The notes below the pieces were generated by a model, which searched no databases, had not been told where the DNA came from, and saw only the letters and a program-made list of their open reading frames with translations. The position numbers were made by a program, and so were the translations under genes. Shown here one piece after another: positions 5,926 to 24,492 of a stretch of 64,000 bases of DNA. The DNA lies in NCBI RefSeq assembly GCF_900473935.1, contig NZ_UCNN01000019.1, forward strand, positions 310,001-374,000, in the 5' to 3' direction. This stretch comes from Synechococcus sp. UW105. GTDB taxonomy: Bacteria; Cyanobacteriota; Cyanobacteriia; PCC-6307; Cyanobiaceae. Within the stretch, counting starts at the first letter, position 1, and the number at the start of each line of letters is the position of its first letter.

Positions 5926-6342
5926 TTAGCCGAATCCTTTCGCTCGGGCCTGAGCGGTGAGATCACGCTGCTGGCCTCGGATTAGAACGTCTCGTTCTGA
6001 TGCCTTGCCGATGTGTGGAGCTATTTCAACCCCTGCCGCTTGGATCGCTTTGAGCTTGTTGCTCTCCTCGCTGGACCCCGTGTCGCTCTGTAGATACGCC
6101 ATCACCTTGGCGTGAGCCTCTGCCGTTGAGGCGAAGTAAAGGGTGCCAGGGCCGCGGCGTTCACGGGTGAGATGTCGTGCCAGGCGACGCTGCTGGATGC
6201 CAGCCCAAAGACGTCCAGCAGCAGCAGTCATGTATGCATTCAGAGTCTCTGCCTCGGTGTCCTCGCTCAGAGCCATGGAGGTGCCGTCGACGAAATCGCT
6301 GAGCAGGGTCACCACAGCCATGGCGTTAAGCGGCGAATTCAC
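5926..6342 (-). CDS. conserved-looking hypothetical protein
   Basis: 138 residues from a GTG at 6342, or 131 from the ATG at 6321; neither has a strong ribosome site. Helical, Ala-rich and charged, with no signal peptide or clear membrane span. The middle (RLWAGIQQRRLARHLTRERRGPGTLYFASTAEA is the region 45-77) is basic. No family recognised. Flanked by 194 unassigned bases on the left (5732-5925, nothing convincing seen) and 123 on the right. Confidence 0.5.
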   Translation of the reverse strand: MNSPLNAMAVVTLLSDFVDGTSMALSEDTEAETLNAYMTAAAGRLWAGIQQRRLARHLTRERRGPGTLYFASTAEAHAKVMAYLQSDTGSSEESNKLKAIQAAGVEIAPHIGKASERDVLIRGQQRDLTAQARAKGFG

Positions 6343-6465
6343 TCAGTCTGATCTGTCGTCTGCATGATCATCCGGCTGCGTGATCATCCGTCTGCTCAGG
6401 CCGAATCCATGACAGCGTCCAACGATCGAAGCGGGCGAGGTCAAGGGTTCGAACGATCGTACGGA

Positions 6466-6738
6466 CTAGGACTCTGACCGTATCCGCTCCATTTCGGTCT
6501 CGATCTCCCGATCTGTGATCGGTCGCTCGGTGTGAGACATGCTCCACCCTTGGATGATTAACGCCAGGCCCCAGCCTGCAATCGGCCAGATGGGCCAAAA
6601 GTCACCCATCCCGTCTGCCCACCAGATCAGGATGAGCGTGAGGCTAACTAACACGTAAGTCTTCAGTTGTTTTTGGAATGCCCGTTTGCGCTTCAGGCAG
6701 GCAAGTGCGTCAGCCCGGAGTTGCTCTGTTGCATCCAT
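6466..6738 (-). CDS. 2TM-domain membrane protein
   Basis: 90 residues from the ATG at 6738. It has a charged N-terminal helix (ACLKRKRAFQKQLKTY), one hydrophobic span (VLVSLTLILIWWADG), the sequence FWPIWPIAGWGLALIIQGW as second span, and a charged tail. This order, with the F-W-P..GWG...G core, is the bacterial 2TM domain (PF13239 type), a helical hairpin sometimes found attached to histidine kinases but here alone. The function is unknown. It diverges from the zinc-ribbon gene with 53 bases between the starts. Confidence 0.7.
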   Translation of the reverse strand: MDATEQLRADALACLKRKRAFQKQLKTYVLVSLTLILIWWADGMGDFWPIWPIAGWGLALIIQGWSMSHTERPITDREIETEMERIRSES

Positions 6739-6791
6739 GGCAGAGGTTGACCTTGGGATCCCATGCTGGTGGTAGCGCTCTTGAAGATCGA

Positions 6792-7256
6792 ATGCCATCG
6801 AAGCCCCGCAACCGCGTTGGTGAGGTCTACGGCCAACTGCTGGTGGTGAGGGCTTCAGAGCGGCGCACGAAAAGTGGGAATGCCTTCTGGTGGTGTCGCT
6901 GCAGTTGTGGACGAGAGCGGGAAGTGCCCAGCGACAAGCTGTCTCACAACACAGCACGGAAGAAACCCGTGGTGATGGCCTGCCTCGTCTGTTCCCGTGA
7001 ACTGCAGGTGGAGGCGGTTTGCGCCAAAAATGACCGAGAGGAGCGTCGTCGTCGCCTAGAATCTGAGCGGATTCGAGCTGAATTGAAGGGAACCGTGCCG
7101 GAGCGGTGGCTGTCGTTGCCACTCACCGATGCCCATGCCAGGGAGCGGGGAGAGCTGCTGTTTTTCCGCGGCACCCGTTGCCTTCGCAATCATCTGGCCC
7201 CCTATCGCATCAATGGTGGCTGCTTGGCCTGCGCTGGGCAGATGCCATCAGCTTGA
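6792..7256 (+). CDS. Cys-rich protein with zinc-ribbon of phage/AP2-associated type
   Basis: 154 residues from the ATG at 6792. The N-terminus (RVGEVYGQLLVVRASERR, then FWWCRCSCGRE and VMACLVC) resembles the small zinc ribbon G..yG.L.V......W.C.CdCG that often precedes AP2 or HNH domains in phage and mobile-element proteins. The middle is a charged helix (NDREERRRRLESERIRAEL). The C-terminus has further Cys (RCLRNH, GGCLACAG) that could form a second metal site. No AP2 or HNH domain follows, so nucleic-acid binding is an inference. Confidence 0.6.
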   Translation: MPSKPRNRVGEVYGQLLVVRASERRTKSGNAFWWCRCSCGREREVPSDKLSHNTARKKPVVMACLVCSRELQVEAVCAKNDREERRRRLESERIRAELKGTVPERWLSLPLTDAHARERGELLFFRGTRCLRNHLAPYRINGGCLACAGQMPSA

Positions 7257-7287
7257 TGCGGATCCCATCCGCCATCCTTTCGAATGG

Positions 7288-7316
7288 CTTGAGCTCAATG
7301 GCTGATTGAGCTCAAG
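7288..7316. terminator. perfect 12-bp stem between convergent genes
   Basis: CTTGAGCTCAAT (7288-7299) and ATTGAGCTCAAG (7305-7316) pair perfectly around a 5-base loop. It lies between two convergent genes and overlaps the stop codon of the Nif11 gene (7312-7314). There is no T-run, so it may act as a bidirectional terminator or as an RNA 3'-end stabiliser. Confidence 0.6.
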
Positions 7317-7515
7317 AAATCCAGCTTCGCGCGAACCAGGTCTCGATCTGTGCGCAGGTTTCATCATCCTTGAGATCGGTCTCGCTCACGCTGAAACCAA
7401 ATTTGTGGGCCATCGCTAGGAGTGCATGCATGGAATCGAGTTGGTGAAACTCCCTTCGCAGAGCTGCACTGTGTTCAACAGCATGAACAAAATCTTTGAG
7501 ACCCTGGCGGCTCAT
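7312..7515 (-). CDS. Nif11-domain peptide, leader-like but without a core
   Basis: 67 residues. LKDFVHAVEHSAALRREFHQ, followed by AMAHKFGFSVSETDL, matches the Nif11 domain (lkdFlekv..d..L...l......alA.e.Gf.fs..dl), the leader type of many cyanobacterial lanthipeptide/microcin precursors. Unlike those precursors it stops right after the domain (ETWFARSWIS), with no double-Gly cleavage site and no Cys/Ser/Thr-rich core, and no modification enzyme is nearby. It overlaps the petJ-like stop codon by an ATGA junction (7512-7515), so translation is probably coupled. Role unknown. Confidence 0.75.
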   Translation of the reverse strand: MSRQGLKDFVHAVEHSAALRREFHQLDSMHALLAMAHKFGFSVSETDLKDDETCAQIETWFARSWIS

Positions 7516-7928
7516 CGCTGCCAGCCCCGCTCGGCTTGTTCTTCGACATAGGCTGCGACATCAGCGATATCGTCTTCGCTCAGTTTGCCTTCGTAGGGAG
7601 GCATGGCATTTTTACCGTTTTCGATCTGGTGCTCAATCGCCTCAAGATGGTCTTGGCTGTAGGCGTTCAGATGGGCCTGGAGATCAGGCTGGCTGAGGGT
7701 GCGACTGGCGCTTAGAACGTTGCCGCCACCCATGTGACAGGCGGCACAGTTGGCCGAAAAGATCTGACCGCCGTTTTCCAGGTCTGGTTGAGCTTCAGTC
7801 GCGCCAACAGGAAGAACCCCGAATAGGCCGATCACGATCGCCAGAACTAAGGGGAGAATCGCTGCTGGCTGCGGCATGGTCGAACGCGGCACATGGTGGA
7901 CTTCAACCTTATCCATGGCGACGCTCAT
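7512..7928 (-). CDS. petJ: cytochrome c6-family electron carrier
   Basis: 138 residues from the ATG at 7928, or 121 from the ATG at 7877, which begins nearer the signal peptide. A hydrophobic export signal (AAILPLVLAIVIGLFGVLP) ends near ATEA. The mature part begins with LENGGQIFSANCAACH: Cys61 and Cys64 bind heme and His65 is the proximal ligand, with Met109 in GKNAMPPY as the second ligand. The C-terminus LSEDDIADVAAYVEEQAERGW is typical of c6. It carries electrons from cytochrome b6f to photosystem I or an oxidase in the thylakoid lumen. It lies just downstream of plastocyanin, the alternative carrier. Confidence 0.88.
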   Translation of the reverse strand: MSVAMDKVEVHHVPRSTMPQPAAILPLVLAIVIGLFGVLPVGATEAQPDLENGGQIFSANCAACHMGGGNVLSASRTLSQPDLQAHLNAYSQDHLEAIEHQIENGKNAMPPYEGKLSEDDIADVAAYVEEQAERGWQR

Positions 7929-7933
7929 GTGAA

Positions 7934-7969
7934 GCCCCTCGATGTGATTACTGATTCACATCGAGGGGC
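7934..7969 (-). promoter_or_regulatory. 14-bp hairpin between petE and petJ
   Basis: GCCCCTCGATGTGA (7934-7947) and TCACATCGAGGGGC (7956-7969) are perfectly complementary with an 8-base loop. The stem is 57 bases after the plastocyanin stop codon and ends 5 bases before the ATG at 7928. No T-run follows on the minus strand. It may separate petE and petJ messages (processing or 3' protection) or restrict translation from 7928; if it folds, the internal ATG at 7877 would be the freer start. Confidence 0.7.
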
Positions 7970-8026
7970 ATGAGTTATGGCTTTTGTTTCGAACTGGTCA
8001 GATCAGAGAGCTCCTGATCATGGCAA

Positions 8027-8386
8027 TCACTCAACGATGACCTTGCCAACCATGCCGGCGCCACGGTGAGGCTCGCAGTAGAAGTCATAGCTGCCAGCGG
8101 TCGAGAACGTCTCTTCCCATGATTCGCCTGGAGCGAAGGCAAGGTCGGAGTGGCTGAGCTCATCGTGCCCATCAAAGACGGCGTTATGAGGAGCCATCTT
8201 GTTGTTCACAAATTTGACGGTGTCGCCCGCCTTGATGTTCACGGTGCTGGGCTCGAACGCCAGCATGCCGGAATCGGATCCGAGCTTCACCTCAACAGTG
8301 GCGGCGCTTGCGGAGGCCACACCCATGCCAATCACCAAAACGAGGGCGATACAGGCCGAAAGAAGGGAACGCAGATGATGGATCAT
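8027..8386 (-). CDS. petE: plastocyanin precursor
   Basis: 119 residues from the ATG at 8386. Signal peptide with cleavage near ASASA (about residue 28), then [12 protein letters not shown]. The type I copper site is complete: His67 (APHN), then Cys104, His107 and Met112 in [10 protein letters not shown]. Plastocyanin shuttles electrons from cytochrome b6f to photosystem I in the thylakoid lumen. A GTG at 8401 would add five residues before the signal. First gene of the petE - petJ-like - Nif11 minus-strand run. Confidence 0.95.
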
Positions 8387-8421
8387 CACGTCAAAAGTCA
8401 CTTCCGTAAGTTTAGCTGCAT

Positions 8422-9438
8422 TTAAGTCTGTCCACGTCTAGGCAATCCCGAGTCCTCAAGAACAGTTTCAAGATCCGGTCCATGACTGGTGAGTTGGAAG
8501 CGTTCAGGCTGGGTCACTGGGTTGTGAATGAAGTGGCGCTGGCGGATGCTGAAACGATCCCAGTCGTTCACCTCGATGGGCAGCACCCTGATCAGCCCTT
8601 CGATCAGCCAGGGCCATAGAGGGATTCCAGGCGTTCTGGCGACACCACGCCAGCGGCAGAGTGTGGCCACCGCTTCATTCACACTGATCGCTTTCTGGCC
8701 CATCACGATCCGGCGGACCGGGCCCTGCCCCGGCTCGGGATTTCGTTGATGGGGAGTCGTGGCCAACGCTCCGCAGATGGCCGCGATGTCGGCGGCATGG
8801 ATGAAGTGGAAGCTGGCATCGGCCCGTAGCCATCGCGCCAGCCAGAGCCACTTGCTGGCTTCAGCAAGGCCTTCGGTGAGGTAACTCGTCGGGAAGCGGC
8901 TGCTGCCGTCGATGCGTCCACCAAAGACCAACGTGGGGAACACGGCCACGATCCGTTCAGCGAGCGGATGGTGTTCGAGATCCTTCAGGCATTGGGCCTT
9001 GGTCTGGATGTATTCGGTGCCGTAGGCCAGGGCCTGGGGCAACGGCTGCAGATCGCGGTTGAGGATGCTGGCCGTGGAGAAGTACACCACCTGCTCGAGC
9101 TTGTCGGGATCAAGCAGGCTCAGCATCCGCTTCACTGCTACCACATTCACCTGCTGCGCACGTTCAGGGTCCCCCCAGGCTGTGGCGGTGTGAATCACCC
9201 TGTTAACGCTGCCTAGATCGGTCGCGAAGCGATCGGTCTCCCTCAGATCACCAACGAGGAGCTTGATGCGCGGGTGATCGAGGGGAATCGCCGATAGCTT
9301 GCTGGGGTCCCTGAGCCACAGCAGAAGTTCAGCATCGGAATGCTCAAGAAGCCAGGCAGTGGTGTACTGGCCGACGCAGCCGCTGGCGCCCGTAATCAGG
9401 ATGCGTGCCGGTGCTGTGGTCAAGGATTCCTTGCGCAA
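8422..9438 (-). CDS. NAD(P)-dependent epimerase/dehydratase (extended SDR)
   Basis: 338 residues from a TTG at 9438 (a second TTG at 9423 is also possible; there is no ATG ahead of the fold). [20 protein letters not shown] is the Rossmann nucleotide-binding motif TGxxGxxG and YIQTK provides the YxxxK catalytic pair of short-chain dehydrogenases. The later FPTLVFGG and [11 protein letters not shown] are common in epimerase/3-beta-HSD-like members. The substrate is unknown. It begins 11 bases after the hemE stop codon on the same strand, so co-transcription with hemE is likely. Confidence 0.75.
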
Positions 9439-9449
9439 GGGAGAGTGGC

Positions 9450-10508
9450 TCAGGCCGCGGTGCCCAGACGTTCCATCACGCTCTTGCCAGAGCGGAAGAA
9501 GGCTGCACCGTTCTCCTCGGGTGTGCCGGGGAGGATGCCATGGCCAAGGTTGAGAATGTGGCGGCGACCCCGGGCCTTGCGGACGCAGTCATCGATGCGG
9601 GCTTCAATCGCTTCGGGGGTTCCGAACAGCAGGCCTGGGTCGACGTTGCCTTGGACCCCAATGTGTTCGGGTAGGCGGGCCAGGGCTTCGGCCATGTCCA
9701 CGGTCCAGTCGAGCGACACGATGTCCACACCGGTGGTGCCCATGCGTTCGAGCACACCCGCACTGCCGGAGATGTAAAGGATGAAAGGGGTGTCTGGGTG
9801 GGTTTGCTTGACCAGATCGACCACCTTCTTTTGATACGGGGCAGCGAAGGTGTCGTAGTCGGCAGGACTGAGCTGGCCTGCCCAGGAATCGAACATCTGC
9901 ACCACTTGGGCACCCGAATCGATCTGGTAGCGAAGGTAATGAGCAATCGATTCGGCGAAGTGATCGAGCAGCTTGTGCAGCATCTCGGGCTCTTGGAAGG
10001 CCATGGCCTTAATCACCGCGTAGTTCTTACTGCTCTTTCCCTCCACCACATAGGCAGCCAGGGTCCAGGGGGCACCCACGAAACCAAGCACTGCGGCTTC
10101 ATTGCCAACGCTCTGGCGCAGGCGACCCAAGACTTCACCCACAAACGGCATGGACTCAGCCGGATTGAGGGTCCGTAGTGCGTCCACCTGGTTCATGCTG
10201 CGGATCGGATCACCGATCTGGGGCCCCTTGCTCTCAATGATGTCGAAGTCGATCCCCATCCCAGGTAGCGGCGTGAGGATGTCTGAGAACAAGATCACAC
10301 CATCAGGCTTGAAGGCCCGAAACGGCTGCATCGAGATCTCGTAGGAGAGGTCAGGGTTCTCTGAGCGCTCTCGGAAGCTGGGATATTTGTCGCGCAGGTC
10401 TCGGTAGATCTTCATGTACCGACCTGCCTGGCGCATCATCCACACCGGGGGACGCTCAACAGCCTCTCCGCGGGCAGCACGCAGCAGCAGGGGCAGGGAG
10501 TCGCTCAT
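9450..10508 (-). CDS. hemE: uroporphyrinogen decarboxylase
   Basis: 352 residues from the ATG at 10508, which gives the standard N-terminus ([20 protein letters not shown] is the start of the conserved region). The family signatures [12 protein letters not shown] and [16 protein letters not shown] are present, as is the catalytic-site [16 protein letters not shown]. The enzyme removes four carboxyl groups from uroporphyrinogen III to form coproporphyrinogen III, a step shared by heme, chlorophyll and bilins, so it matters for pigment supply. An upstream in-frame start at 10556 is not needed. Confidence 0.97.
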
Positions 10509-23902: not shown

Positions 23903-24492
23903 ACGACTCCAGACCCCTGGTTCTGGTGCATGGATTGTGGGACACGCCCCACCTGTTCCGGCGCCTGGTTCGCCGTCTCGAGCAGTATCAGATCTCTCTG
24001 CTGGTGCCCCACCTCCCCCATCGTCTCGGGGCGGTTCCCCTGACGACTCTGGCTCGACAGCTCGACCAGTGCATCGCCGCTCGCTGGGGGGATCAGGAGA
24101 TTGATCTCCTCGGCTTTTCGATGGGTGGCGTCATCAGTCGTGTTTGGCTTCAGGACTTTGGGGGGTTTAGGCGCTGCCGTCGGTTCATCAGCGTGGGAAG
24201 TCCTCAGCAAGGCACGCTGACGGCTCAATGGATTCCGCGCTGGCTGTTTGCCGGTCTTGCCGATATGAAACGGGGTAGTCCCCTCCTCAACCACCTCAAT
24301 GCCGACCTGACGGCCTTGCAACGTGTGGAATGCGTGAGTTTCTTTTGCCGCTGGGACCTGATGGTGGTTCCTGGTTGGCAGGCCGTGCTGCCAATGGGGA
24401 CGCAGGAGGAGGTGCCGGTGCTGAGCCATCAGCAGCTGATGGCTCACCCTTTATCTCTTGAGATCTTGATGAAAACGATCCTGAAGGATTGA
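23899..24492 (+). CDS. lipase-like alpha/beta hydrolase
   Basis: 197 residues from a GTG at 23899, overlapping the folB stop by four bases. PLVLVHGLWDTPHLF has the oxyanion HG motif and LLGFSMGGV the nucleophile elbow with Ser74; a His near the C-terminus (SHQQLMAH) could complete the triad. It resembles bacterial lipases/PGAP1-like esterases. No signal peptide, so cytosolic. The substrate is unknown; coupling with folB is probably positional rather than functional. Confidence 0.75.
   Translation: MNDSRPLVLVHGLWDTPHLFRRLVRRLEQYQISLLVPHLPHRLGAVPLTTLARQLDQCIAARWGDQEIDLLGFSMGGVISRVWLQDFGGFRRCRRFISVGSPQQGTLTAQWIPRWLFAGLADMKRGSPLLNHLNADLTALQRVECVSFFCRWDLMVVPGWQAVLPMGTQEEVPVLSHQQLMAHPLSLEILMKTILKD

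Follow-up and report, generated by a model that had tools for sequence, protein, structure and literature searches.

How marine picocyanobacteria choose between a copper carrier (plastocyanin) and an iron carrier (cytochrome c6) needs explaining if they lack the regulator that operates the known switch. In Synechocystis 6803, the opposite copper control of petE and petJ is exerted by PetR/PetP, as described in the available portions of two reports (PMC7896320, PMC13421787). A first-pass annotation of the window (the whole 64-kb stretch of Synechococcus sp. UW105 DNA analyzed here) had taken such opposite regulation as usual for the two genes, which lie adjacent in it. No known regulator backs this premise here: PF03965, the family of PetR and one broader than PetR itself, was found in 0/21 genus genomes and 0/201 family genomes. 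In a draw from the phylum, PF03965 is present in 92/116 genomes; 39 of these 92 belong to the same class outside the family and the rest to other classes, and at least ten same-class genomes are listed for this draw as having no match (four of its non-matching genomes are unlisted). The choice between petE and petJ is also not binary here, because the window genome holds two further c6-type genes ~75 kb away on one strand (L021 4268-4615 and 7617-7961). An ORF shortly upstream of these two genes is a putative metal ABC permease gene. The locus is a directly testable candidate for carrier choice, and we computed its gene order, its hairpin and the conservation of that hairpin, the conservation of a promoter-like motif, the constraints on the open reading frames and the missing core of the Nif11 protein.

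Profile matches and coordinates bear out that petE, a c6-type cytochrome gene and a Nif11 gene form one minus-strand run (Table 1), in which the petJ stop is indeed fused to the Nif11 start by ATGA. The SDR gene upstream of petE recurs in 20/20 g1/g5 loci (g1 being the window's genus), and the petE ORF is extendable to a GTG at 8401. The nearest solved relative of the petJ-like protein is cytochrome c6 1kib (E 2.5e-28), and its CxxCH heme site is present (CAACH). Its score under the NCBIfam PetJ equivalog NF045930 is 119.9 bits against a cut-off of 135, which is likewise missed by the two c6 paralogs of the window genome (132.1 and 120.4) and by the WH7803 relative (128.0). We therefore call the gene c6-type and use petJ as a short label only. 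The 67-residue Nif11 protein scores 32.2 bits with TIGR03798, slightly below the cut-off of 32.3. The hairpin overlapping the Nif11 stop is possibly the 3' end of the petJ-Nif11 unit. It faces a plus-strand ORF at 6678-7256.

Table 1 Features of the carrier locus in window coordinates
Feature	Position	Strand	Basis or remark
SDR/epimerase-family gene, 5' neighbor of petE	8422..9438	-	Pfam Epimerase, E 2.6e-13
petE, plastocyanin	8027..8386	-	TIGR02656, 127.7 bits vs cut-off 87.85
Minor 7-bp hairpin right after petE stop	8001..8019	-	dG -6.4 kcal/mol
14-bp perfect hairpin, 8-nt loop; probable petE terminator stem without T-run	7934..7969	-	dG -28.5 kcal/mol
TTCACA, -35-like, 5/6 to TTGACA	7928..7933	-	Consensus match only; relatives T-rich there
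TAAGGT, -10-like element inside GGATAnnnT-type motif	7906..7911	-	16-nt spacer to TTCACA
Cytochrome c6-type (petJ-like) ORF	7512..7928	-	Pfam Cytochrome_CBB3 and Cytochrom_C
ATGA, petJ stop overlapping Nif11 start	7512..7515	-	Sequence
Nif11-domain protein, 67 aa, without recognizable RiPP core	7312..7515	-	PF07862, 39.2 bits vs gathering 23.8
12-bp perfect hairpin overlapping Nif11 stop	7288..7316	-	No T-run on either strand

Between petE and petJ stands the perfect 14-bp stem that the first-pass annotation had pointed out, with 5 nt separating its end from the earliest ATG in the petJ frame (7928). Its fold is significant against 200 shuffles (p 0.005). Perfect hairpins with a stem of at least 11 bp and a loop of 3-10 nt occur three times in the 64 kb, namely the two in Table 1 and a third at 24422-24446, where a Markov-1 null gives a mean of 0.1 and, for stems of at least 14 bp, 0 in 20 simulations. 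An origin as a dispersed repeat was rejected, as a search of the whole genome (2.66 Mb) allowing up to three mismatches gave a single copy of the hairpin, and no known RNA family was found in the 64-kb window at gathering scores. The stem is followed by TTCACATG, with three T in 8 nt and no U-tract, and a consensus scan reported no terminator at this hairpin. The same stem is kept in the near relative UW140 with one A-U to G-U difference, and the T-run is missing in both genomes. In WH7803 (locus L110) the T-run is interrupted. Given the missing U-tract, we refer to the window element as a terminator-derived stem.

In relatives, a hairpin is present at the corresponding place after petE, as the first-pass annotation had proposed looking for. 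In 106 loci (L102, the duplicate of the UW140 locus L002, was left out), we took the 115 nt that follow the petE stop and compared their best local fold with 200 dinucleotide shuffles. These loci are related by ancestry and the counts are non-independent; with that reading, the fold is significant (p≤0.05) in 89/106. At least five T in the 8 nt around the fold end were counted in 74/106 loci, by a crude count that includes part of the 3' arm and in which the fold of L003 and L006 takes in the T-run. Broken down by gene order, significant folds and T-rich ends are found in 30/37 and 33/37 petE-petJ-Nif11 loci, in 38/39 and 26/39 petE-Nif11 loci, and in 20/20 and 13/20 loci with petE alone. The petE-petJ loci without Nif11 (g31, g45, g48, g49 and g54) reach only 1/10 and 2/10, and in five of these ten petE is only 45-50% identical. 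Changes on both sides of the stem with pairing kept affect 4/13 pairs in seven g5 hairpins and 1/15 pairs in six g1-type hairpins, two homogeneous subsets picked after the mixed set gave nothing: the consensus fold of 17 mixed hairpins, whose alignment was poor, predicted no pair. Because of the frequency of significant folds and T-rich ends and of these compensatory changes, the hairpin after petE is most likely petE's intrinsic terminator.

Each spacer of the 29 petE-petJ-Nif11 loci scored contains one -10-like motif of the GGATAnnnT type (29/29), and the likely start of petJ follows ~30 nt further on. At the anchored place TA-N3-T is kept in 29/29 loci, a count partly imposed by the search pattern; as this pattern was devised once the spacers had been read, and the rows were anchored on it, column identity is inflated. 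The best place for a -35 element lies 15-18 nt upstream of the motif, where relatives are T-rich. The match there is 5/6 in the window and UW140 (TTCACA) and 2-4/6 in the other 27 loci, short of the scan threshold; by our estimate with equal bases, chance would produce a 5/6 match in ~2% of cases when the best among five spacings is taken. In fact, the consensus scan reported no promoter in 6000-10000, with TTCACA-16-TAAGGT scoring 8/12 at a threshold of 9. We nevertheless infer from the conserved motif that petJ has its own sigma-70-type promoter after the hairpin.

The same spacers bear on where petJ begins. An in-frame stop bars a petJ start ahead of the motif in 16/29 loci, and the frame is open in 13. 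After the motif, where start codons were scored in the loci other than L003 and L108, an ATG stands at 29-33 nt in 23/29 loci, L014 and L004 have a GTG or TTG at +32, and in the window and UW140 the ATG comes at +37. The ATG at 7928 had been called the first possible petJ start; it is the first in-frame ATG, but it falls within the predicted promoter. Because the likely start of relatives stands ~30 nt after the promoter-like motif, petJ probably starts not at 7928 but at ATG 7877 or GTG 7892.

The gene order recurs among relatives. The 201 family genomes contain matches to petE in 119, to the c6 protein in 176 and to the window's Nif11 in 60. In a tally of 120 petE matches in the 119 genomes, with petJ taken from among the matches listed and its absence meaning no listed match within 1500 nt, the order petE-petJ-Nif11 is found in 20 genomes. 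These are 10/10 sampled g1 genomes, the window's own included, and 10/10 g5 genomes, so that all 20 genomes sampled from the two genera share the arrangement that the first-pass annotation had proposed to look for. In 39 of the 119 petE-bearing genomes Nif11 follows petE with no listed petJ match close by, 20 genomes have petE-petJ without a Nif11 match, and 41 petE matches have neither. Seen from the other gene, 59/62 matches of the window's Nif11 lie directly downstream of petE on the same strand. A profile built from the carrier-locus Nif11 proteins finds Nif11 in 77/107 loci (the duplicate L102 is counted among the 77), including eight g35 loci in which it stands 93-190 nt after petJ. Among 80 named c6 loci, some of them truncated where a contig ends and some sharing a genome, 17 are petE-petJ-Nif11, 7 petE-petJ, 6 petJ-Nif11 (no petE within 500 nt upstream) and 50 neither. 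In L131, L136, L143, L149, L150 and L177, petJ is followed by a Nif11-like gene 107-200 nt on, and the 500 nt upstream are petE-free. Since Nif11 follows petE without petJ between and also petJ without petE close upstream, its tie, as far as gene neighborhood tells, is to the carrier locus and not to petJ alone. What is less ordinary about this locus is that many relatives keep the Nif11 gene next to carrier genes, including those in which one of the two carrier genes is absent from the spot.

Beyond the family, Nif11 profile A1 has matches in 45/146 class genomes; 35 of these 45 lie outside the family, and a comparison of coordinates placed no petE near the profile-A1 Nif11 in any of the 35. 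A record titled as a Burkholderiales MAG (L125) contains a cyanobacterial-type c6 of 51% identity, probably a binning error. A phage origin of the gene set was rejected: the 401 phage records matching petE (cyanophage) are all <60% identical to the window's gene, and the window's Nif11 has no phage match at E≤0.01, with the limited reach of a short query.

Turning to the Nif11 protein itself, a 4-nt overlap joins its start codon (ATG in 22 loci, GTG in 2) to the petJ stop in 24/29 loci; in the remaining 5/29, all g5, the start follows the stop at a distance of 4 or 5 nt. The first-pass annotation had the small protein co-translated with the cytochrome. This is plausible in view of the overlap, by which Nif11 would be translated with petJ, but it does not cover the 39 genomes in which Nif11 follows petE without petJ. 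The protein combines a conserved Nif11 part with a conserved C-terminal WF..S.I. Between the window and UW140 its gene has dS 0.33 and dN 0.02; dN/dS is ~0.06-0.22 in 8/9 pairs and 0.54 in L011/L016, a pair that differs in a Ser/Pro-rich tail. An AlphaFold model shows five helices (mean pLDDT 77), and a Foldseek search with it returned no match at E≤0.001 and one at E 7. By sequence, the solved Nif11 protein 9zn4 matches with E 2e-4 and 4e-4. With profile A1, two anti-sigma domains came up weakly (E 0.26 and 0.33); they did not reappear with A2, and the similarity was taken as chance. The window's Nif11 is predicted to be a small helical protein without a core peptide; judged by its gene neighborhood, it most likely helps the expression or assembly of the soluble electron carriers.

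We note that the window genome (G000) has 22 matches to profile A1, a large Nif11 family, and that some marine Synechococcus are described with large Nif11 families in the accessible part of PMC10783134. The same part mentions Nif11 precursors near photosynthesis genes (cluster 3), which may be the carrier-locus Nif11 gene. In a metatranscriptome, as far as the accessible text of PMC9723758 goes, some "Nif11 domain-like protein" is reported at a higher level with +Fe than with +DFB. Among the literature matches listed, no title concerns a petE-Nif11 link, and in the literature searched "Nif11" and "plastocyanin" occur together in one paper, where plastocyanin appears only among the references. 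A word search of PMC5069720, PMC3744912 and PMC7393227 returned nothing about petJ or Nif11.

These observations can be read in several ways. The first-pass annotation suggested that the genes share a message which the hairpin cuts or attenuates, and a single petE-petJ-nif11 transcript would make the hairpin a partial attenuator, or an RNase-processing or 3'-stabilizing element, that sets the petE:petJ ratio. The shared strand and the short gap (the c6 match lies 101 nt from petE) agree with this, as does a strong stem without T-run in the window and UW140. We consider it unlikely, however: in the petE-petJ-Nif11 loci at large the same stem is mostly T-rich at its end and resembles an intrinsic terminator of petE, and every locus scored has the promoter-like motif behind it. 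Some read-through from petE into petJ may occur in the window lineage, because the T-run is missing there. The palindrome might alternatively be a protein-binding operator for petJ (TGTGA...TCACA-like) and not an RNA hairpin, as its upper stem reads TGTGA-N8-TCACA and abuts the promoter-like motif. The consensus of CRP-type sites has N6 spacing and the NtcA site is GT-N10-AC; the N8 spacing departs from the former, the palindrome forms no site of the latter pattern, and the letters vary among relatives with pairing kept, which leaves an operator very improbable.

A further alternative concerns the Nif11 gene, which could be a RiPP precursor of the prochlorosin type, adjacent to petJ by chance. 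The Nif11 domain, the near-miss of the TIGR03798 cut-off and the 22 profile-A1 matches in the window genome speak for such a precursor. Neither GG nor GA is found after residue 40 in 76/77 of the Nif11 proteins, the window's among them, and the C-terminus is the conserved WF..S.I, not the variable core rich in Cys, so that the Gly-Gly cleavage site and C-terminal core that define N11P are both missing from the window's protein. The precursor reading was dropped for this missing core; with nearly all matches of the window's Nif11 directly 3' of petE as well, we give chance adjacency very little credence.

We therefore favor, with good confidence, two transcription units that meet at a terminator-promoter junction, petE ending at the hairpin and petJ-nif11 starting after it, with a coreless Nif11 that aids the carriers. 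Termination, promoter activity, translational coupling and the role of Nif11 are what we infer. Transcription of petE would end at the 14-bp hairpin, an intrinsic terminator or the remnant of one, and petJ-nif11 would start right behind it from its own sigma-70-type promoter. The -10 element of that promoter would lie in the GGATAnnnT-type motif, and its -35 region where the terminator T-run of most relatives stands. In the window and UW140 the T-run is absent and TTCACA stands in its place, a better -35 match that probably costs termination efficiency. Nif11 would be translated together with petJ through the ATGA overlap; it is kept beside the soluble electron-carrier genes and most likely helps their expression or assembly. 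The Nif11 subfamily of this locus is probably a protein linked to photosynthetic electron transport, and not a peptide precursor, the label that its top-scoring NCBIfam model would give.

A broader version is more speculative, and we think it rather improbable as a whole. In PetR-less picocyanobacteria, carrier control might have passed to a junction whose single A/T tract is at once terminator U-tract and petJ -35 region, together with the coreless Nif11. Termination and initiation would then be traded off against each other, as in the window lineage, and Nif11 would regulate or assemble whichever carrier stays.

Compared with known systems, the junction shares with rho-independent (intrinsic) terminators a G+C-rich stem right after petE, a T-rich end in most relatives and some compensatory stem changes. 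It differs from them in that the copies in the window and UW140 are without a T-run, and in that the place of the T-run coincides with the -35 region of the promoter-like site that follows. With the PetRP switch of Synechocystis 6803, as far as described in the available portions of PMC7896320 and PMC13421787, the locus has the same carrier gene pair in common; unlike that system, PF03965 is missing from all 201 family genomes and petE and petJ are adjacent on one strand. Finally, like the Nif11-derived leaders and prochlorosins (N11P, TIGR03798) described in the accessible parts of PMC2887384 and PMC10783134, the window-type protein has an N-terminal Nif11 domain. In contrast to them, it lacks a Gly-Gly site and a core, ends in WF..S.I and is fixed beside petE/petJ.
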